Shown: piece by piece, positions 919 through 10,375 of the stretch
Numbering within the stretch: the first letter of the stretch is position 1
Layout of the letters: every line of letters begins with the position of its first letter
NCBI GenBank assembly: GCA_030620695.1
Contig: JAUXEA010000010.1
Coordinates: 1-12,484 of the forward strand
Reading direction: 5' to 3'
From: Candidatus Aenigmatarchaeota archaeon
GTDB lineage: Archaea > Aenigmatarchaeota > Aenigmatarchaeia > QMZS01
DNA length: 12,484 nt
Made by a program: the position numbers and the translations under genes
Notes under the pieces: model-generated
Told to the model about the DNA's origin: nothing
The model's input: the letters and a program-made list of their open reading frames with translations, nothing else
The model's database searches: none

Positions 919-1974
919 TCAAACACAAACCCCATACAAATCACCGGCTCTTTTAACCTCAAATTTCCTATTAATAAATTTTTCAGTAACCCAGATGTTT
1001 GTTTTTGTGTGGTTTGTTAATTCAGAAACTTTGTAACCTGAATTTCCTTTTGTCAATGCCATAAAAGGAATTAACTGGTCTGCAAGGTGTTTGTCAACTG
1101 TGGCTTCAGAGTTAATCTCATCTATTAATTCTTTGGCAGCTTCTTCTCCAACCTTCTCTGCTTTCTTCCCTAATTCTCCAAGGGAATTTGCTCCTAAAAT
1201 TGCTGGACTTGTCCAGAGTTCAATACCTGTTCCAGCAGACAGGGAAGAAACATATTTACTTCTAATTTCTATAGGTAAATTTAGAGTTCTCAAAATTTGT
1301 TTTGCACTTTCTGCCTGTCTCTCTGCAACTCTTGCATTTCTTAAATTTTCTGAGGCAATTGATATTCCATTAATTTTTTCTATACCTTCTTTTTCGCAAA
1401 GCGAAAAAGGGGCCCCCGAAGGACGAGTGTCTCTGTCAATAGAAAAGCCTTTCAGTTTTGAAGGAAAAATTTCTGCAACAACTTTTGCCCCACCTTTTGG
1501 ATAAAAACCACATTTCAGAATTTTTATATTTGCTTTGAACCCAAATTTTTCCAGAGTCGGCATAAAAACTTTTTGCAAATAAACAACTGAAGGGGCCCAC
1601 TTTCCAAAAGTTCCGCCTCCATCTACTTCAATTCTCAGATTTCTGTCTGTGTTGACAGATGAAAGAAAAATTGTTTGTAAAACCAATCCAACAGAACCTG
1701 CTGTTGAAATTTTTATCTTCAATTCTTCTTTATCAATTTTATCTGGGTGAAAATAAATTTCCTTTGAGCCTATTTTTGCACCTTCTATTTTTGCATTGTA
1801 TAAATCCCTAACTGCAAGCAGGGAAGCAAGATGTTGTGCCTTTAGTCCGGGTTGTTTTCTTCCAGCTCTAATATTGTAGATATGAATTGGATTTTTTGTT
1901 AAACAGGATAAAGCCATACTTGTTCTTAAAATTTGCCCCCCACCTTCTAAATAAATTCCATCTATCTCAAGCAT
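919..1974 (-). CDS. rtcA: RNA 3'-terminal phosphate cyclase (RtcA) with an in-frame repeat insertion
   Basis: RtcA uses ATP to convert RNA 3'-phosphate ends to 2',3'-cyclic phosphates through an adenylated enzyme histidine. Family marks are the N-terminal EGGGQILRTSMALS block (~10-23), KWAPSVVYLQ (~125-134), GFYPKGGAKV (~156-165), and the C-terminal KHLADQLIPFMAL, whose His (~296) matches the adenylated histidine. The start at 1974 gives 351 residues beginning MLEIDGIYLEGGGQ, as expected of the family. The reading frame stays open for 44 more codons upstream, but these would run back through the tRNA gene and resemble nothing in RtcA. Residues ~181-196 (DTRPSGAPF and following) are extra relative to what I know of archaeal RtcA and coincide with the palindromic repeat at 1389-1431. 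Catalytic blocks are intact, so the enzyme is probably active. No Shine-Dalgarno is visible; the mRNA is likely leaderless. Confidence 0.93.
   Translation of the reverse strand: MLEIDGIYLEGGGQILRTSMALSCLTKNPIHIYNIRAGRKQPGLKAQHLASLLAVRDLYNAKIEGAKIGSKEIYFHPDKIDKEELKIKISTAGSVGLVLQTIFLSSVNTDRNLRIEVDGGGTFGKWAPSVVYLQKVFMPTLEKFGFKANIKILKCGFYPKGGAKVVAEIFPSKLKGFSIDRDTRPSGAPFSLCEKEGIEKINGISIASENLRNARVAERQAESAKQILRTLNLPIEIRSKYVSSLSAGTGIELWTSPAILGANSLGELGKKAEKVGEEAAKELIDEINSEATVDKHLADQLIPFMALTKGNSGYKVSELTNHTKTNIWVTEKFINRKFEVKRAGDLYGVCV
1389..1431 (-). repeat. Two-hairpin palindromic repeat, copy A (inside rtcA)
   Basis: Read on the minus strand this begins ACACTCGTCC, passes a short UUCG-type hairpin (TCC-TTCG-GGG) and a GGGGCCCC box, and ends in a perfect 9-bp hairpin CTTTTTCGC/GCGAAAAAG with a 3-base loop (plus-strand arms 1389-1397 and 1401-1409). 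The first ~22 bases are nearly identical to copy B1 in the AlbA_2 gene. It is translated in frame as D-T-R-P-S-G-A-P-F and following residues, giving the same TRPxGAPF peptide as copy B1. Confidence 0.85.
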
Positions 1975-2001: not shown

Positions 2002-2060
2002 GCGGCTGTAGTCTAGTTGGTTAGGATACAGGCTTCCCATGAACTTTTCTTTCTCAAAAG

Positions 2061-2110
2061 AACACTCGTTTTTCCTTGAAAAACGGTGCATCGTTTGCTT
2101 ACGCAAACGA
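2061..2110 (+). repeat. Two-hairpin palindromic repeat, copy C (inside tRNA intron 1)
   Basis: AACACTCG (2061-2068) leads into hairpin one, CGTTTTTC (2067-2074)/GAAAAACG (2078-2085) with loop CTT, then GTGCA, then hairpin two, TCGTTTGC (2091-2098)/GCAAACGA (2103-2110) with a 4-base loop. The start and first stem match copy B2 in the AlbA_2 gene almost base for base; the second stem has a different sequence but full pairing. It would be removed with the intron during tRNA splicing. Confidence 0.85.
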
Positions 2111-2146
2111 ATGAATTCTCAAGCCAAAAAAATAAAAAATCAAAAG

Positions 2147-2172
2147 CCTGCCGAGTTGAAAGCGAAGGCAGG
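2147..2172 (+). repeat. Additional hairpin within the intron insert
   Basis: CCTGCC (2147-2152) and GGCAGG (2167-2172) form a 6-bp, GC-rich stem with a 14-base loop. It stands out in an AT-rich intron and lies 3' of the palindromic repeat within the segment bounded by the 9-bp duplications. It may be a third structural part of the inserted element. Confidence 0.6.
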
Positions 2173-2222
2173 GTAAATGATTGAACTTTTTGAAGTTCAC
2201 GGAAACAGCCTGTGACCCGGGT

Positions 2223-2248
2223 AAATTTCGTCAACAGAAATTCCGCAA
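2223..2248 (+). other. tRNA-Gly intron 2: 26-nt T-loop intron (54/55)
   Basis: Removal restores the conserved T-loop TTCAAAT. The intron folds into a hairpin, AATTTC (2224-2229)/GAAATT (2237-2242), and its 3' part CCGC (2243-2246) can pair three of four bases with T-stem CCGG (2217-2220). This leaves bulges GT^A and AA^T in the arrangement cut by the archaeal splicing endonuclease. A shift of one base left is also possible but would place A at position 54, against the conserved T. Non-canonical intron sites are known in archaeal tRNAs; this BHB is a relaxed form. Confidence 0.82.
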
Positions 2249-2294
2249 TCAAATCCCGGCAGCCGCAGAATATAATATTAAAACAAGTTAAATA

Positions 2295-3560
2295 ATGAAA
2301 ATATTGAATTTATTAGCCTGTTTTATATTTTTTCTGTTAATTCTCTCTCCAATATTCGCAGCACAAAATTCAACTTACAAAGAAATAATTAATTCTGTTC
2401 ACCCTTACTTGTTATATTATGAAATAAACCTCCCAAATCAAAATACTTTTAATGCGGGGGATATTGTCCCTGTTTCTCTCTATCTAAAAAATATTGGTGA
2501 GACCTCAATTCCTGAATTATATTTTGTTATTGATTTATCAGAAGGGTGCTCAGAAACAAATGCAGACTGCCATAATCTATTCTACGAAGAAAAATTAACA
2601 ACAAGTTTAGACAAAAGAGAAAATAAAACAATAAACACAGGAATAAACTTATCAGACAACTTAAGGCAGGGAAATTATACTTTTAGTTTTTATATAAGAA
2701 GTCCAAGACTTGACATTTTTGGGGTTCATCCTTCCTACCAGCCTTTTGAACAGTATAATTTCTTTGTTAAAGGAGCAGGAAATTTTCCAAATGTAAAAAT
2801 TCTTCCAGATAAAACAACATTCGGAATGGCAGCAGACCAGAGAGGTCCGGCAGTTAGCAGAAACGCGGTTGTAGAAGGGTATTTTGCTGCCCGGAATTTA
2901 TTAAATGAACAATTTAATGGAAAAGTTAAATTATATTCCTGTCCTTTTAATGATGTTGGTTATTTTTCCTGCAAATATTTAAAGGAACATTCAATTTCAA
3001 TTCCGCCAAAAAGTGAGAATGGTTTTGTTTATGAAGTAACAACAAATCAGGAGCAAGATGCTTATTCTTTAAAATTTGAATTAGTGGACGAGCAGGGAAA
3101 AATTAACTCTATCTGGAAAAGCAGATATATTGTAAGTGGTGAAGATGCCCCAATTCTTGTTCTGGCTCCGGATAAATTTTATTATAAATCCGGGGAAAAA
3201 GTTTTGATTTCTGTTTATATTACAGGACCTTATTATCCATCTTCTGTTAAAGAAACAAACGCCAGTGTTAAAGTTTCTATCCATCAAAATAATGAAGAAA
3301 TATCTTCAGATACAAAAACAGATTTTTTCAAGCGAGGTATTGCTAAACAACTAAGTTTTAAATTTACAACACCAATTGATTTAACAAATTATAAAGTTTG
3401 TGCCCAGACATTCTCAAGTTCCGGGGAAAAGTTGGATGAAATTTGTCATTTTATAAATGCAGAAAAAGAAGTTGTACAACCTAATATTCAATTATATACC
3501 TTTATCTTAATATTAGTTATTGTAATTGGTATATTTGGTTACTTGGTGAAGAGAAAATGA
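2295..3560 (+). CDS. Exported, C-terminally anchored surface protein of unknown function
   Basis: A 421-residue protein with a clear N-terminal signal peptide (hydrophobic run within residues 3-22, small residues before AQNST) and a single C-terminal membrane segment (about 400-417) followed by KRK, so the bulk should face outside. The body is beta-rich in composition with repeated blocks such as FNAGDIVPVSLYLKNIGE and KFYYKSGEKVLISVYITG, reminiscent of CARDB/Ig-like domains of archaeal surface proteins; this family assignment is inference. Sequons NST, NKT, NLS, NYT and NAS would allow N-glycosylation. There is no Shine-Dalgarno before the ATG, which lies 27 bp after the tRNA with an AT-rich stretch (AATATAATATTAAAA) that may act as promoter. 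It overlaps the next gene by ATGA, indicating an operon. Confidence 0.85.
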   Translation: MKILNLLACFIFFLLILSPIFAAQNSTYKEIINSVHPYLLYYEINLPNQNTFNAGDIVPVSLYLKNIGETSIPELYFVIDLSEGCSETNADCHNLFYEEKLTTSLDKRENKTINTGINLSDNLRQGNYTFSFYIRSPRLDIFGVHPSYQPFEQYNFFVKGAGNFPNVKILPDKTTFGMAADQRGPAVSRNAVVEGYFAARNLLNEQFNGKVKLYSCPFNDVGYFSCKYLKEHSISIPPKSENGFVYEVTTNQEQDAYSLKFELVDEQGKINSIWKSRYIVSGEDAPILVLAPDKFYYKSGEKVLISVYITGPYYPSSVKETNASVKVSIHQNNEEISSDTKTDFFKRGIAKQLSFKFTTPIDLTNYKVCAQTFSSSGEKLDEICHFINAEKEVVQPNIQLYTFILILVIVIGIFGYLVKRK

Positions 3561-4348
3561 GATGGAAAATAGCAGGTTTGGTATTTGTAATTTTATTGGT
3601 AATAGGATTTTTGCCTATTTCTTTAGCAGCCTCTTGCCCTAAAGTTAGTGGTTGCACAAATAAAGCCTTTCCCGGAAGATTTTGTTATCAGGGAGAAGAC
3701 ATAACAGATACAATTTTACAGTATTATGTGAGTGGTGGAAAATTTTATCTTCCTGAAAAGGTAACAATATATGGGTGCAAATTCACAGGAAATTATCATT
3801 GGTGCAGTAACACCGCATATAGAAAAGAAACTATGTCTAAACGTTTTTCTCTGACTGAGACAGGAACTATCAATTGCACAGATGTAATGACTTATAATAT
3901 AACAGTAACAGAAGACCAGTTAATTAATATTACAAAGAAATATGTTTATACTGATGTAAGTTTTCAAACAAAAAAAGAAGGTCTGCCTTTAATTTTAGAA
4001 GACCTGAACTCAACAAAGTTGGAGGAAGTAAGAAATGAAGGAAATCAAAGCAAGTATGAAGAATTGGTTATTTATGAAATGTTAAATAATACTGTAAGAA
4101 GGCTGAACAAGGGAGGAACTAATGTGACTTATTCTGTTCCGGCAACTTCTTATGGTGTTTTGAAAGTAAAAAAAGAGAAATATTATATATCGTTTGAGAA
4201 ATCTTATACTCACATGATGGATATAGGTTTAATTAAAGTAAAAATAGAAAAAAAATGTAGTAGTGAAGGAACCTCTGGTTATACAATACTAAATGTATTG
4301 CAACACACTATTACTGTTACTAATAAAATTTTGAAGTTATTTTGGTAA
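3557..4348 (+). CDS. Secreted sequon-rich protein of unknown function
   Basis: I do not recognise a family. The 263-residue product has a signal peptide (MRWKIAGLVFVILLVIGF, then SLAAS) but no C-terminal membrane segment, so it is probably secreted or held by partners. The N-terminal 90 residues carry many cysteines (e.g. CPKVSGC, CYQ, GCKFTGNYHWC), suggesting disulfide-bonded structure outside the cell. Seven N-X-S/T sequons (NCT, NIT twice, NST, NQS, NNT, NVT) follow. The start codon overlaps the upstream stop by ATGA and the next gene begins 3 bp downstream, so the three surface-protein genes are almost certainly co-transcribed and may form one complex. Confidence 0.82.
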   Translation: MRWKIAGLVFVILLVIGFLPISLAASCPKVSGCTNKAFPGRFCYQGEDITDTILQYYVSGGKFYLPEKVTIYGCKFTGNYHWCSNTAYRKETMSKRFSLTETGTINCTDVMTYNITVTEDQLINITKKYVYTDVSFQTKKEGLPLILEDLNSTKLEEVRNEGNQSKYEELVIYEMLNNTVRRLNKGGTNVTYSVPATSYGVLKVKKEKYYISFEKSYTHMMDIGLIKVKIEKKCSSEGTSGYTILNVLQHTITVTNKILKLFW

Positions 4349-4351
4349 ATT

Positions 4352-6910
4352 ATGAAATACATAATTATCTTACTAAGTTTCTTGATTTTCTCTTTTCAGG
4401 GACTTGTTTTTGCAGATAACGCAACTGTTATTGTAAAGCCTCCGGATTTGGTGTTAGAATATTTTACTTCTCCTTTATATCTTTTACCACCCACAGAAGC
4501 CTCAGTAGAATTTAAATTAAGAAATCCAAATGAATTTGATGAAAATCTTATAAATATTTCTTTTTCTAATTTTAAATTTTCCGGAGTTTCTTTACCAACA
4601 TTATTTTTATCTAATGAATCAAAAACATTTTCTTCTGCTTTATTTTTTGAAGAGATGAAAGACCCGGATTTCTATTATTATAATTATAAAAATATAGCTA
4701 ATCTGCTAAATACCGGAACCAAACTAATAGTTAAAGGTAATTTTTTTGGTGCAACTATTGATTATGCTTATCTTCCACCAAACCCAAAAACAAAAATTCT
4801 AAATAGAACTTTATCTATAATTCATTCCTGTAATAATGATTATCATCCCTTTCAGTTAGTAAATGCTTCCGGAAGTTTGTATATTTGCTCTGATAATTGT
4901 GGTGAATCTTATGAATGGAGAGATGCTTATTATCCGGAAGTTGACAGTATTTCAGCCTTTCCGAAAATAGTTGACGGGACAAAAGAGGCGGGAATAACTA
5001 CTAGTCCTATAATAACTTCTTTTGTATCTGACAAAAATTGTTATAAAGATATTTATAAAGCATATTTAACAGCAATTTCACCAAATGGAACAAAAGTGGT
5101 TGATAATGTTGAGATGTCCTGCTCTTATTATAATTTTACAACAAAAAAATGTGTGTATGAATTAATCAATTGCACAGAATTAGGAAATTATAGTGCAGAA
5201 GTCAGGGTTGTTGATAATGAAGGCCTGGAAGATAAAAAAAGTGAATTAAATATTTTTAGAGGTGTTGATTTACAGGTTTCAATCACAAAATTCTATGGAA
5301 ACACAACAGACTTTTTTATTGAAGGAAACGCAAAAATATTACCGGAAAATTTGGATATAACAAATGTTCTAAACTTATGTTATTGCGGTTATCCAAACCC
5401 ATTTTATTTAGGGGGCAGAACAGAAAAATGCGGGATAGCAAATAACTGTTCCTTCTTGGGTCCCGGAAAATTTAAATGCTATATCAGAGATTTGAAATTA
5501 ACAGATGTACTTACAAGTATTTCTTTTATAATCACAACTAATGCTTTTTCAATTAATCTGTCCGGTTATGACAGGCAGGAAATTGATATTAACGGAACAA
5601 TTAACTCTGTAAAAATAGAACCAAAAAAAAGTTTTTTCAACATTTTTGAGCTAACAAATTATACAATAAGTTTTTCAAATCTTGGGAATCTTGGATGGCA
5701 TGGAAAAATCTATAATCAGACAAGAATTTCTGTTTATTCTTTAAACAACCCTTCAAATAGAGAATGCTATTTTGCTGATTACACCGATAAAAACTCATTT
5801 GTAAACTTACAAAAAGGAAAAACAGGAAACTTCTCCTATCTTGGTAGTTCTTACTTTATTCTTGGAACTTATAAAGATTACCTTGTTGACTTAAAATACT
5901 TCTGGCCCGAATTTAATAATAATTATGGAGTCTCCCCTTTGAATTTTTCAATTGCAAAAAAAGATATTCCTGACTTGGACTACAGTGTTGCAGCAATAGA
6001 TATAACAGAATATGAATTGCCAGGTGAGGTAATAAGAGGAGACTTGGTAATCGGAAAAGCAAAAGCTTATTTTGTTGGCTCAATGAACTTTGATTATTGG
6101 GAGCTTGTTCAGGGTTTTAAATATAGGGCAACGGATAAAACTTCTGAAGGAAAATTCTGGGTTACAAAGTATAATAAAACAAGCAAAAATGAAATTTCTG
6201 AATTAGGGAGTAAAGCTAAAAAATTAAATATGGAATTTAATAGTGCAACAAATTTTTGGGAGGCTGAGATTAATACTTTTAATTTGAGTTGCGATGATGA
6301 GGGAACCACTCACAGAGTTTATTTCCTAATTAACTGGACAGATTATGGAATTTACACTCCATATATAAAAGGATATTTTGAGCCAAGATATTGGCCTTAT
6401 TTCTATCAGGATTTAAAAATAAATTGCATCTCAAGAGATTTTTTTGAAGTAAACCCGGAAACAATAAATTTAAGATTAGGAGAGGAGAATAAAGAGTTAT
6501 GGCAGACTACAGTTTTAAACAAGGAAGAAAATCAAATAGAAGTTGATGTTTTGTTATTATCAAAAAAATATCCGGATGTCATCAACTGGTTGGAATTCAG
6601 GGGAAATACTTCTTTTTGCGGGGAAAGTTGTAAAAAAACAAGTCTGATTCTTCCTGGTTATACTACTCCTGGAATATTAAGTGGGGGGTCAACTTTAGTT
6701 CACTTAATTAAAGCAACCAGAACCGGAAATTATGAATTGGAATTTGTTGTTAAAGAAGTTTCAACCGGCCGGGAATTATACAGGAGAAAAGCTTGGTTAA
6801 ATGTTTATTCAGAAGCGATTGGTTCAGAAAACATATTCTTCCTGATTTTGTTGTTCTTGTTTGTGGTTGCTCTAAATTTTAAATTAAATAAGAGAGAAAT
6901 TTGTAAGTGA
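4352..6910 (+). CDS. Large exported, membrane-anchored surface protein
   Basis: An 852-residue protein with a signal peptide (hydrophobic within residues 3-21, ending VFADN) and a C-terminal membrane helix (FFLILLFLFVVALNF) before a short basic tail. The ectodomain begins with a CARDB-like stretch (DLVLEYFTSPLYLLPPTEAS), typical of archaeal envelope proteins, then cysteine-rich patches (e.g. LCYCGYPNPF) and about twenty N-glycosylation sequons. No enzymatic motif is visible. A structural, adhesive or cell-cell contact role is plausible but unproven. It is the last gene of the three-gene operon and converges on the flippase gene 34 bp away. No Shine-Dalgarno precedes its ATG, so translation may be coupled to the upstream gene. 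Confidence 0.85.
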   Translation: MKYIIILLSFLIFSFQGLVFADNATVIVKPPDLVLEYFTSPLYLLPPTEASVEFKLRNPNEFDENLINISFSNFKFSGVSLPTLFLSNESKTFSSALFFEEMKDPDFYYYNYKNIANLLNTGTKLIVKGNFFGATIDYAYLPPNPKTKILNRTLSIIHSCNNDYHPFQLVNASGSLYICSDNCGESYEWRDAYYPEVDSISAFPKIVDGTKEAGITTSPIITSFVSDKNCYKDIYKAYLTAISPNGTKVVDNVEMSCSYYNFTTKKCVYELINCTELGNYSAEVRVVDNEGLEDKKSELNIFRGVDLQVSITKFYGNTTDFFIEGNAKILPENLDITNVLNLCYCGYPNPFYLGGRTEKCGIANNCSFLGPGKFKCYIRDLKLTDVLTSISFIITTNAFSINLSGYDRQEIDINGTINSVKIEPKKSFFNIFELTNYTISFSNLGNLGWHGKIYNQTRISVYSLNNPSNRECYFADYTDKNSFVNLQKGKTGNFSYLGSSYFILGTYKDYLVDLKYFWPEFNNNYGVSPLNFSIAKKDIPDLDYSVAAIDITEYELPGEVIRGDLVIGKAKAYFVGSMNFDYWELVQGFKYRATDKTSEGKFWVTKYNKTSKNEISELGSKAKKLNMEFNSATNFWEAEINTFNLSCDDEGTTHRVYFLINWTDYGIYTPYIKGYFEPRYWPYFYQDLKINCISRDFFEVNPETINLRLGEENKELWQTTVLNKEENQIEVDVLLLSKKYPDVINWLEFRGNTSFCGESCKKTSLILPGYTTPGILSGGSTLVHLIKATRTGNYELEFVVKEVSTGRELYRRKAWLNVYSEAIGSENIFFLILLFLFVVALNFKLNKREICK

Positions 6911-6944
6911 GTATTGAGTGGTTACTTTGGAAGGTTTTAAAAAT

Positions 6945-8528
6945 TCATTTCCTGATTATTTGTTTGATTAAATCAAGAATCTCCTTCAGGTTTATTATTT
7001 TAAACAAAAACAACAGAATAATAAATATAGAGATAAAAACAGAAAAACAAATAAAAACTTCAAGAAATATATTAGTAACAAGCAAGTTTTTGAGAAAATA
7101 AACAGAAAGAAGTGAAATAATGCCTATAATTAAAGTTTTAGTCCAGTCTAAAACCGGAACTTTTATTCTGACAAATTTTCTTAACTCAACAAATGAAAAT
7201 AAAAACATTACTATATAAGTTAAGAGGGTGGATATTGCAGCTCCTATAATTCCAATTATTGGGATTAAAATTATGTTTCCAACAAGGTTTATTATTGCAC
7301 CAAGATACACAATTTTTGTATAATTTTTTGGTTTCCCCAACCCGTTCAAAACAGTCCCGTTTATCTGAACTATTGAGAAAAAAATTGCACCAATTGCAAG
7401 AATTTTTAAAACATCAGAACCCTGTGCATAAAAAGAGCCGAAGAAGAGATTCAAAATTTCTGCTGAAAAAGAAAAAGCCATCGAAGCAAAAGGAATTATA
7501 ATTATCCAGATATATCTGTAAATTAAAGAAATGCCGATCTCGAGACCTCTTATCTTTTTTGTTTTTAGTTCTGTGACTAGAGGAAATAAAACCGTTGCAA
7601 ATGCCCCTGAAAAAAACCAGAGAAGCCCGGCTGTTGGTTGGGCAGTCTGGTAAATTCCAACTTCTTCAAGACTTTTGAAAAGAGTAATTAAAATTGTGTC
7701 TGTATACCCAATTATAACTCCTGCCACAGAAGAAAGCATTATCGGGAACCCGTAGAAAAGTAATTTCTTTGTCAGTTCCCTATCAAATATTTTTCTTTTG
7801 GGATGTCGGTCATTATTACCCAACTTCGTTTTTTGGCTTGATGCTTTTTCAGGTTCACATAGAAAAGCCTCATTTTTAAAGGCTGATTTTGGGATTAATT
7901 TCAAAACAAAAGGTAAAAATATCAGGATTACAAAAATATAAGAAATTAAGAAACCCAGGGCAGGAGAAAGAACAGAGAAGTTTAATGAAATAAATAACCA
8001 GGTTATTATAAAATAAAATAACATTCTGCAGAAATTTGCTATTGCAAAAAGTTTTATTTTCTGAAAACCCTGGAATATTGATTGAATTGTAGTATAAAAT
8101 ATTTCAACAAAATAAGCAATTGCCAGAAATTTTATAACAAGAACGCCTTTTAATATATTTCCGGACAGATGTAAATAATTTACTGCAAGAAAATCAGCAG
8201 AAAGGAAAATAATTATTGTAATTATCAGGGCAGGAAATAATTGGATAAGAAAAACAGTAAAAACAGAAGTTTTTAATTTTTTAAATTTCTTTTCTGCTTT
8301 AAATTTTGAGATATGATAAACTAAACTTTGTGTAAGACCAAAATCCTTAAACAATACAAATAGACCAATAAGAGACAAAGAAGCATAAAAAAGACCGTAA
8401 TCTGCGGGGGTTAAATTTGAAGTTAAAACAAATCTTAGCAAATAACCAACAACTGCTCCAAGAACACCAAACAGAAAAACAAAGAATGCCCCGGATGCAA
8501 CTTTTTTTAAATAGCTTTGATTAGACAT
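6945..8528 (-). CDS. Wzx/RfbX-type polysaccharide (lipid-linked glycan) flippase
   Basis: A 527-residue, very hydrophobic protein with about 12-14 membrane segments. The N-terminus (KKVASGAFFVFLFGVLGAVV, then TPADYGLFYASLSLIGLFVL and DFGLTQSLV) is characteristic of the polysaccharide transporter/MATE-like flippase superfamily (COG2244), which moves lipid-linked glycans across the membrane. The two halves are separated by a polar, charged linker (about residues 222-252: CEPEKASSQKTKLGNNDRHP and on), as expected for the central cytoplasmic loop but rather long. It probably supplies glycans for the surface layer, in keeping with the sugar-epimerase genes to the right and sequon-rich proteins to the left. 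The start has no Shine-Dalgarno, and the gene ends against the convergent surface-protein operon. Confidence 0.9.
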   Translation of the reverse strand: MSNQSYLKKVASGAFFVFLFGVLGAVVGYLLRFVLTSNLTPADYGLFYASLSLIGLFVLFKDFGLTQSLVYHISKFKAEKKFKKLKTSVFTVFLIQLFPALIITIIIFLSADFLAVNYLHLSGNILKGVLVIKFLAIAYFVEIFYTTIQSIFQGFQKIKLFAIANFCRMLFYFIITWLFISLNFSVLSPALGFLISYIFVILIFLPFVLKLIPKSAFKNEAFLCEPEKASSQKTKLGNNDRHPKRKIFDRELTKKLLFYGFPIMLSSVAGVIIGYTDTILITLFKSLEEVGIYQTAQPTAGLLWFFSGAFATVLFPLVTELKTKKIRGLEIGISLIYRYIWIIIIPFASMAFSFSAEILNLFFGSFYAQGSDVLKILAIGAIFFSIVQINGTVLNGLGKPKNYTKIVYLGAIINLVGNIILIPIIGIIGAAISTLLTYIVMFLFSFVELRKFVRIKVPVLDWTKTLIIGIISLLSVYFLKNLLVTNIFLEVFICFSVFISIFIILLFLFKIINLKEILDLIKQIIRK

Positions 8529-8830
8529 AATTTTATTTGCAATTAATTTATGCCCCTTGTTTCTGTTGTTTTGCCAAGTTTTAGTGGATATTTGAAAAAA
8601 TTAGATAGGTATTAATATGAAACTTTCAATAATTTTGGAAAAATGTTGGCATTTACACAACAGAAAGTTAATAACCACCCTTTAATATATTGGATATAAT
8701 AACATTATTATGGATATAAAAGTAACCAACCTTATGATAAAAATATTGGAAAAATATACAACTTATCAATTTCTTTAAACTAAGTTAGAAGAAGAAAACA
8801 TATTCAGATTAATTAATTTCTGAGCTATTT
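8529..8830. other. 302-bp intergenic region between flippase and AlbA_2 genes
   Basis: This divergent spacer must hold promoters for both neighbours. It contains an imperfect inverted repeat (8560-8666), TATA-like runs on the plus strand (TTTAATATAT at 8681-8690; GGATATAA at 8692-8699 and 8712-8719), and two 22-codon open frames (8617-8685, with AGGT six bases before its ATG, and 8710-8778). The small frames show no recognisable family and are short enough to be chance. I see no tRNA, CRISPR or other RNA gene here. Confidence 0.5.
8560..8666. repeat. Imperfect inverted repeat, ~107 bp
   Basis: TTTCTGTTGT (8560-8569) is the exact reverse complement of ACAACAGAAA (8657-8666), and inside these GCCAA (8573-8577) is complementary to TTGGC (8646-8650). 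The arms total 15 bp and are interrupted by 3 and 6 unpaired bases; the centre is 68 bp. It could be terminal repeats of a small element, a long RNA hairpin, or an operator pair. Confidence 0.5.
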
Positions 8831-10375
8831 ATGAAGGAGCAAAACATTATAGATTTAATTAAAAAGGGTGAATCTGAAACTCTTGAGTTCAAAGAAACAC
8901 CAAAGTTAAATAATGAAATTGGAGAGGTGGTTGGTGCTTTTTCAAATACAAAGGGTGGAAGAATTCTAATTGGTGTTTCTGACTCGGGGAGAGTAATTGG
9001 AGTAACAATCGGGAAAAATACAATAGAGGAACTTGCGAATTATATAAAAAGAAATACAGACCCTCAGACTTATCCTTCAATCAGGATTGAGGAGGTGGAA
9101 AATAAGAACACTCGTCCTCTGGGGGCCCCTTTTTTGCAAAGCAACACTCGTTTTTCTGAAAGAAAAACGGTGCCCCTTTTGCCAAAGGCAAAATCAGGAA
9201 AAGAAGGAATAATTTTTATAGAAATTCCGGAAAACAAAGAAAAACCGGTTTTCTTTAAAAATCATGCTTACAAAAGAGTTGGGAAAACAAATCTGAAGTT
9301 AAATTCTTCTGAAATAAGAAAATTGGCAAAAGAAACAGGAGAGAAAGTTTACTGGGATGAGCAGATTTGCAAAGAAGCGACACTTGAAGATATTAATGAA
9401 GAAAAAGTTAAATGGTTTTTGAGAAAAGCAAAATATGAAAGAAACTTTGATATTGAACCGGAAACTCCGGTTAAGGAATCGTTGGAAAGATTAGAACTTA
9501 TAAGAAATGATGAGTTGACAAATGCAGCAATTTTGCTTTTTGGAAAAAATCCTCAAAAATTCTTTTATCAAGTTGAAACAAGATGTGGAAGGTTTAAAGG
9601 GACAGAACCTGTTAAACCATTTATAGACATGAAAGTTTTTTCCGGAAATATTATTGATCAGGTTGACAAATCTCTTGGTTTTGTGCTGGAACATATATCT
9701 ATGAAAGTTTATCTTGCAGGAAAACCTGCCAGAGAGGAAAAATATGAGTATCCAATTGATGCAATAAGGGAAGCAATAATAAATGCAGTTTGTCATAGAG
9801 ATTATGAAACTTCAACAAATATTCAGATTAGAATTTTTGATGACAGGATTGAAGTCTGGGGTTGTGGACCCCTGCCAAAACCTTTGAAACTAGAAGATTT
9901 AAGGAAAAAACATAAATCAATTTTGAGGAATCCTTTAATTGCCAAATGCTTCTTTTTGATAAAATTTATTGAGCAGTGGGGGACAGGAACAAATGATATG
10001 ATTGATATGTGTCTGGATTGGGAACTCCCTGAACCCTTATTTGAATATGTTGCAGGTGATTTTGTTATTACATTTAGAAAATCCAGATTAACAGAAGAAT
10101 TTTTAGAAAAATCAGGATTGGGTGAAAGACAAAAGAAAGCAGTAGAATATTTGCTAAAGCATAAAAAAATAACAAACAGGGAATATCAGGAAATTAATAA
10201 AGTCTCAAAGCCAACAGCCACAAGAGAATTAAAAGAATTGGTAGATAAAAAAATATTTGTTAAACATGGGGAAACCGGAAAAGGTACCCATTATACTTTA
10301 TTTGAAAGGGCTCACAAAGGGCTCACAAAGGGCTCACAGGAATCTATTTCAATAGGCAAAAAAGGTGAAAAATGA
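8831..10375 (+). CDS. AlbA_2 (Schlafen-type) / RecG-like ATPase-fold putative transcription regulator
   Basis: A 514-residue protein with an N-terminal AlbA_2 putative DNA-binding domain (ESETLEFKETP near residue 14; GAFSNTKGGRILIGVSDSG near 35-53), a RecG-like HATPase_c_4 region (DAIREAIINAVCHRDY ~309-324; EQWGTGTNDMI ~380-390) and a C-terminal winged helix (~430-490, SKPTATRELKELVDKK). The family is widespread and often linked to stress or mobile-element contexts; its ligand here is unknown. Residues ~93-121 are an insertion made by two tandem palindromic repeats within the AlbA_2 domain, between strands reading YPSIRIEEVEN and EGIIFIEIPE. The C-terminus ends in a segment encoded by three 11-bp repeats. 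The stop overlaps the next start by ATGA, so it is translationally coupled to the sugar-epimerase gene. Confidence 0.88.
   Translation: MKEQNIIDLIKKGESETLEFKETPKLNNEIGEVVGAFSNTKGGRILIGVSDSGRVIGVTIGKNTIEELANYIKRNTDPQTYPSIRIEEVENKNTRPLGAPFLQSNTRFSERKTVPLLPKAKSGKEGIIFIEIPENKEKPVFFKNHAYKRVGKTNLKLNSSEIRKLAKETGEKVYWDEQICKEATLEDINEEKVKWFLRKAKYERNFDIEPETPVKESLERLELIRNDELTNAAILLFGKNPQKFFYQVETRCGRFKGTEPVKPFIDMKVFSGNIIDQVDKSLGFVLEHISMKVYLAGKPAREEKYEYPIDAIREAIINAVCHRDYETSTNIQIRIFDDRIEVWGCGPLPKPLKLEDLRKKHKSILRNPLIAKCFFLIKFIEQWGTGTNDMIDMCLDWELPEPLFEYVAGDFVITFRKSRLTEEFLEKSGLGERQKKAVEYLLKHKKITNREYQEINKVSKPTATRELKELVDKKIFVKHGETGKGTHYTLFERAHKGLTKGSQESISIGKKGEK
9107..9144 (+). repeat. Two-hairpin palindromic repeat, copy B1 (inside AlbA_2 gene)
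   Basis: AACACTCGTCCTCT leads to GGGGGCCCC and then a short hairpin TTGC (9134-9137)/GCAA (9141-9144) with loop AAA. The first ~22 bases differ from the rtcA copy at only two or three positions. It is translated in frame as N-T-R-P-L-G-A-P-F. The copy is immediately followed by copy B2, sharing bases at the junction, with start-to-start spacing of exactly 36 bases. Confidence 0.85.
9143..9193 (+). repeat. Two-hairpin palindromic repeat, copy B2 (inside AlbA_2 gene)
   Basis: The most complete copy. AACACTCG is followed by hairpin one, CGTTTTTCT (9149-9157)/AGAAAAACG (9161-9169) with loop GAA, box GTGCCCC (9170-9176), and hairpin two, TTTTGCC (9177-9183)/GGCAAAA (9187-9193) with loop AAA. It is in frame as N-T-R-F-S-E-R-K. 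Its first half matches the tRNA-intron copy and its middle box matches the rtcA copy, tying all copies into one family. Confidence 0.87.
10305..10337 (+). repeat. Three tandem 11-bp repeats at the 3' end of the AlbA_2 gene
   Basis: AAAGGGCTCAC is repeated exactly three times (10305-10315, 10316-10326, 10327-10337). The 33 bp span codes RAHKGLTKGSQ. Because 11 is not divisible by three, losing or gaining one unit changes the frame: one fewer unit ends at a TGA a little before the present stop, one more runs into TAG, and either would disturb the ATGA coupling to the downstream gene. Confidence 0.9.

Follow-up and report, generated by a model that had tools for sequence, protein, structure and literature searches.

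How does one small repeat with two hairpins come to lie both within protein-coding genes and within the intron of a tRNA gene? The question arises from a window of 12,484 nucleotides, by which we mean the whole stretch of DNA analysed here, one contig of a 547,495-base, 122-contig Candidatus Aenigmatarchaeota assembly given as 66% complete (genome label G000). An original prediction, made from the letters of this window, had placed four copies of the repeat in two protein genes and a tRNA intron and had drawn a parallel with Rickettsia palindromic elements (RPE).

Four copies in the window, one interrupting another

All four predicted copies were recovered, and in each a CACTCG is followed by two hairpins with a GTGC or GGGCCCC box between them. 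Copy A (1385..1429, minus strand, 45 nt; model match of 44.1 bits) lies in frame inside rtcA, the gene for RNA 3'-terminal phosphate cyclase (919..1974, minus strand; Pfam PF01137, E 9.3e-78, and PF05189, E 1e-16). The inserted peptide reads about TRPSGAPFSLCEKEG, and translation of the insert would give RtcA peptides such as TRPSGAPFSLCEK. Copy C (2063..2113, plus strand, 51 nt; 59.1 bits), with a 3' end placed by analogy with the copy at locus L175, which has an empty site, was found in an anticodon-loop intron, intron 1 of tRNA-Gly(CCC) (2002..2267, plus strand), in agreement with its predicted position inside a tRNA intron. Both of its hairpins appear in the RNA fold.

The remaining two copies, B1 and B2, lie in a Schlafen AlbA_2/HATPase_c_4 gene (8831..10375, plus strand; PF04326, PF13749) and had been given adjoining coordinates, an arrangement that did not survive closer reading. 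Copy B2 (9145..9198, plus strand, 54 nt; 54 bits) is situated within the second hairpin of B1, which it divides into a 5' part (9109..9144, plus strand, 36 nt) and a 3' part that resumes at 9199 (9199..9207, plus strand, 9 nt). If B2 is removed, what remains of B1 is a complete 45-nt element whose second stem is intact. The combined length of B1 and B2, 99 nt, equals the net insertion of the AlbA_2 gene relative to its relatives. The nesting of B2 in B1 implies two separate insertions. An Rfam scan of the window gave no matches above the curated score.

Element architecture and covariation

The element has the layout CACTCG-hairpin-GTGC-hairpin-AGG/ATG and is mostly 42–60 nt long. Comparison of copies showed that the unit consists of CAC-T-CG-stem-CG-GTG, then a short box, then a second hairpin with AGG or ATG at its end, and the span less two bases of the copies in the window genome was 33 to 61, with a median of 52. 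The claim that stems stay paired while their bases change was strongly upheld across 84 distinct aligned rows, which include both-strand duplicates and come from an alignment fitted to the structure: 93.0% of cells pair, and in 18 of the 20 pairs both partners have changed. Double-change cells numbered 277, where shuffles gave 76.7 and slid controls no more than 36, and the covariation score was 0.417 versus 0.153 when shuffled and at most 0.134 with partners slid. At the base of stem 1 the covarying combinations were CAC/GTG, CAT/ATG, TGC/GCA and one TAC/GTA, with incomplete pairing in CAA/GTG (5/85) and with some GGG partners. These sequences are compatible with stem pairing that is maintained in either DNA or RNA. 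Because the ATC-type element has near-symmetry, its orientation is partly ambiguous. An A precedes CAC at position −1 in 69/86 copies and at −2 in 57/86, an A- or purine-rich context that is partly built in, as the search pattern and the model contain the A.

Spread within one archaeal family

The core pattern of the element had five matches in the window genome versus none for the reversed pattern, and ACACTCG occurred at 33 places versus 16 for its reversed pattern, with about two dozen of the 33 showing the two-hairpin layout by reading. A covariance model trained on 19 copies was run on 130 kb of sequence from the same genome, in stretches that had been picked for containing hits, and matched 85 times at E ≤ 0.001; once both-strand duplicates were removed these corresponded to 67 distinct places, some of which overlap or nest. 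Copies occupy protein genes and intergenic DNA as well as tRNA introns, and some lie within further copies of the element itself.

All nine genomes of the genus matched the model at E ≤ 0.01, with counts of 88 (the window genome), 42 (G006), 19, 15, 15, 14, 11, 1 and 1 (the last two G002 and G003), where counts include both strands, 150 candidates were scored per genome and the assemblies are incomplete. The covariance-model scan proposed with the original prediction thus yielded the further copies in this genome and its close relatives, and the large copy-number differences (88 versus 1), that had been anticipated. In a class-wide search of 115 genomes with stricter filters and 50 candidates scored per genome, 11 matched at E ≤ 1e-4, namely 9/9 of the genus and 2/2 of the other family genomes searched (one match each), and none of the remaining 104 did. 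When the core pattern, which covers one hairpin subset, was scanned against the genome collection, the three stretches that matched were all from Aenigmatarchaeota. As far as tested, the family is lineage-specific and confined to one Aenigmatarchaeota family. Carriage of the element by viruses was considered and rejected, the core pattern having no matches in viral contigs.

Empty sites in orthologous genes

The original prediction had also called for a comparison of orthologous proteins, and the inserted peptides are absent from the close orthologues of rtcA, the AlbA_2 gene and pgk. In rtcA, 15 codons (45 nt) are absent from all eight orthologues found (six from the genus and two from the family; the two genus genomes that lack an rtcA match are not counted among them), and the 45 nt of copy A equal the net insertion. 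Loop length varies among 15 more distant rtcA homologues, in which part of the insert is aligned with different residues. In the AlbA_2 gene, 33 residues (99 nt) are absent from the three closest orthologues (3/3; G002, G003 and G005), and the window flanks, when joined, read ENKKIIFIEI, which is identical in G002 and G003. The third gene, encoding Pgk (locus L130), contains 15 residues (45 nt) that are absent from 6/6 genus orthologues found.

Empty sites were also found at the DNA level. The gene copy at L190 has a relative at L154 that is 95% identical over the joined flanks and carries no element, and further empty-site pairs are L156 versus L181 and L035 versus L190. The L175 copy, which by eye occupies the D-loop intron of a tRNA, differs by 46 nt from its empty counterparts in two genomes, L197 and L149; this is the cleanest empty site, with a target duplication of at most 1 nt. 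The L148 copy has a possible 4-nt flanking repeat by reading, at a site with no empty allele.

Copies in protein genes are mostly in frame

Host proteins in the window genome include RtcA, the AlbA_2 protein, Pgk, ribosomal protein L22 (with the element in its tail), a ThiI/NFACT-R-like protein, DUF63, a TP_methylase (DPH5-like by reading) and a RIO-type kinase (Bud32-like by reading), as well as ArgRS, class I LysRS and a class I synthetase read as LeuRS. The coding copies had been predicted to be entered in the same frame, which holds for the three in the window but not for the genome as a whole, in which copies are read in each of the three frames: mostly (N/D/G/H)-T-R, with others read as K-T-L/I or x-H-S. 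The copy at L140 (GH130) is excluded from our claims, as it is probably upstream of the real start codon.

By the codon usage of their flanks, a call that needs no open frame through the element, 20 of 142 places gave coding rows, or 18 sites without two overlapping second readings. Copies were in frame at 16/18 of these sites (binomial p 1.7e-6 versus one third) and out of frame at the other two (L151 and L162). Lengths divisible by three were found in 19/24 coding copies versus 46/115 others (Fisher p 5.8e-4), under a mechanical end rule that leaves 3 of the 142 without a recognisable end and with a hand-chosen coding list that omits complex nested coding copies and counts the orthologous pair L169 and L172 twice.

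In an AlphaFold2 model of RtcA built with 20 relatives (mean pLDDT 90.8), the sole segment below 50 comprised residues 183–196, within the insert, a low value that is partly expected given that the aligned relatives have no insert. The structure model of Pgk was unusable (mean pLDDT 61.2). In G006, a dispensable host gene, that of an IS1595-type transposase, is split into two frames by an element copy (L148, 46 nt by reading) that is antisense to it and out of frame. This out-of-frame split indicates that insertion is not frame-guided, and selection is the likelier filter of coding copies.

Copies in tRNA introns

Joining 2002–2039, 2207–2222 and 2249–2267 of the window gave a tRNA-Gly(CCC) that ARAGORN accepted, with cut points uncertain by at least 1 nt, as shifts of 1 nt were accepted too. 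Copy C is contained in the first of its two introns (~2040–2206, about 167 nt), and the second (~2223–2248, 26 nt) splits the T loop. When introns were removed in silico around 142 places and both strands were passed to ARAGORN, a tRNA was restored at 10/142, eight in the sense and two in the antisense orientation of the element, versus 0/150 random controls. The threshold behind this count, five splice combinations, was chosen after the results were seen, and five weaker rows were left uncounted because one of them, with two combinations, was the coding copy B2. The procedure permits one intron and misses the tRNA-Gly(CCC) of the window and L175, so that further element-bearing tRNA genes likely exist beyond these ten; several other loci look like tRNAs by eye.

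The same copy was also seen at the same place in introns of different tRNAs. From such sequence likeness, whole introns seem to have been copied between tRNA genes as well, and not every copy would then be an independent insertion.

Other features of these introns were recorded. Alike tRNA introns (TGAACTTTTCTTTC...GAAAGAAAAA) are present in different tRNA genes at window 2040–2206, L034:1480–1620 and L136:1590–1730, which suggests that introns are copied as units. A longer composite, GCCTTTTATTGG-element-AGGAAGGCTTAAGCC, is found both as a T-loop intron (L032, L132 and L020, by eye) and in intergenic DNA outside tRNAs (L127:2067, L011 and L038). A hairpin at window 2146–2182 ends in GCGAAGGCAGGGTAAATGAT and has look-alikes in the tRNA introns of L128, L138, L175 and L197. 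Unspliced ARAGORN searches of 37 sources from the window genome gave no uninterrupted tRNAs, and the tRNA genes recognised in these sources all have introns.

Orientation and candidate mobilising enzymes

Element orientation within genes is biased to sense, and the bias is not absolute. At 21 places in the window genome where the longest spanning frame has at least 200 residues, 14 copies were sense and seven opposite. Four of the opposite places are second readings that overlap a sense place, one is copy C in the tRNA gene of the window, just at the margin of an extended reading frame, and codon usage supports neither of the last two (L031). Copies of the CCC/CTC type were stop-free in 70/90 sense frames and 73/90 antisense frames, and this near-equality on the two strands means that stops do not explain the sense bias. 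Sense-only insertion was rejected, because antisense copies were found in reading frames (L128:2562, in a 131-aa frame, L158, L159 and the split transposase at L148) and in tRNA introns (L191 and L151).

No mobilising enzyme was found among the two kinds examined in the nine genus genomes, RVT_1 and Y1. A reverse transcriptase was rejected as the mover, with RVT_1 found in 0/9 of these genomes. The Y1 transposase (PF01797) was detected in 5/9 and not in the copy-rich G000, whose assembly is 66% complete; its presence does not track copy number in these assemblies, which makes it a less likely mover. One copy in G006 (L148), about 540 bp from a Y1 match, is the copy within the IS1595-type transposase gene.

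Relation to known elements

RPE are described as short palindromic repeats in frame within unrelated, probably working protein genes and elsewhere (PMC3733652, PMC10969869). The elements found here share with them an in-frame palindrome in conserved proteins that is absent from orthologues (rtcA, AlbA_2 and Pgk; 16/18 sites in frame). They differ in their archaeal host, in length (mostly 42–60 nt versus ~150 bp for RPE), in a two-hairpin layout with a GTGC box and in their additional presence in tRNA introns. The Rickettsia parallel stands as a way of living and does not extend to a demonstrated common descent.

REP elements, tagged with GTAG or CGTC and associated with RAYT transposases, are likewise small dispersed hairpins that sometimes lie in coding genes, including those of tRNA synthetases (PMC3733652). 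Here, in contrast, GTAG is not a fixed tag, being near the 3' end in 9/67 copies of the window genome and 0/75 copies of relatives, and the most copy-rich genome (66% complete) has no detected Y1 transposase. Prokaryotic MITEs are likewise short, non-coding, dispersed and presumably moved in trans (PMC10969869). Our elements fall below the 70–300 bp given for MITEs (PMC3733652), and differ further in target duplication, which is at most 1 nt at L175, the net insertions in rtcA and the AlbA_2 gene being equal to the element. A model for Caldiarchaeum has archaeal tRNA introns gained through a mobile element (PMC3293823) and likewise ties mobile DNA to the disruption of tRNA genes; it involves a 1.8-kb sequence with a predicted recombinase, whereas a ~50-nt palindrome inside an intron is seen here.

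By analogy, the element would work like bacterial RPE and intragenic REP, with tRNA introns as a second refuge, and this does not imply descent from them. Protein-coding palindromes are described for bacteria in the text available to us (PMC3733652, PMC10969869); the present genomes show the same way of living in archaea, with tRNA introns in addition and several related genomes with empty sites. The publication listings of our literature search, with most subscription papers and all preprints outside its scope, contained no archaeal palindrome of such a kind.

Explanations for the family

These copies very probably constitute a family of non-autonomous, REP/RPE-like mobile palindromes, mostly 42–60 nt long, in one Aenigmatarchaeota family: the copies are dispersed, their stems covary, empty sites are present, copies nest and those in genes are biased to be in frame. 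The predicted selfish element that stays open in genes and is spliced out of tRNA fits the sequence data, with translation and splicing being predicted steps. Copies that break needed genes would be lost, and survivors in genes would be those that have lengths divisible by three, are free of stops and are situated in tolerant loops, while copies in tRNA genes would persist within introns that splicing removes. Movement would be in the form of DNA hairpins on which an enzyme acts in trans, a route that we prefer with chances that we put at about even; spread may also have involved recombination or replication slippage around the hairpins.

Movement at the RNA level, by insertion into transcripts (for example through reverse tRNA splicing) and copying back into DNA, would account for the sense bias at the 21 places (14 versus 7), which is not due to stops, and for the 8 sense versus 2 antisense tRNA hits. 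We consider it very unlikely nonetheless, as RVT_1 was found in none of the nine genus genomes, the near-symmetry of the ATC-type element blurs some orientations, and the antisense copies noted above occur in reading frames as well as in tRNA introns. The presence of copies in tRNA gene introns at several positions could also be taken to mean that the elements are structured introns, or pieces of introns, that splicing removes from mRNA just as from tRNA, the protein never holding the peptide, and archaea splice bulge-helix-bulge introns out of a few mRNAs. Yet most coding copies stay in frame, remain open and have a length that is a multiple of three, none of which splicing needs, and the net insertions in rtcA and the AlbA_2 gene equal the element and have no extra sequence for splice sites. 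In the window tRNA-Gly the element is not itself the excised bulge-helix-bulge unit, being 51 nt inside an intron of ~167 nt. As a general explanation, splicing from mRNA appears very unlikely.

Very well kept stems and the intergenic position of some copies would suit functional regulatory RNA or DNA motifs, such as terminators or protein-binding sites, that are under selection and not selfish. Against this, match counts range from 88 to 1 within the genus (in incomplete assemblies), orthologous sites are without copies, and copies lie inside enzymes in three frames, making such a function highly improbable. Returning to mobile palindromes, we tentatively propose, with rather more doubt than belief, that they might represent a new class of archaeal selfish palindrome of ~50 nt whose spread has made tRNA introns longer and added new peptide loops to core enzymes in one genus, the mover being an enzyme that recognises hairpins and whose kind has yet to be connected with repeats like these. 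This family makes two questions testable: the way in which tiny palindromes move, and the part of mobile repeats in any growth and spread of archaeal tRNA introns. The inserts are natural experiments on the tolerance of conserved enzymes for new peptides.

Further observations

Between the tRNA gene and the AlbA_2 gene, at window 2295–6910, lie three successive frames with hydrophobic, signal-like starts and no Pfam matches. A second two-hairpin module, CTGC-hairpin-GAGACCC-hairpin-AAAGGTT, was seen in or beside the second hairpin of several element copies, at L129:137–192, L133:3234–3289, L135:3209–3264, L140:1508–1564, L142:1609–1664 and L181:8881–8936.
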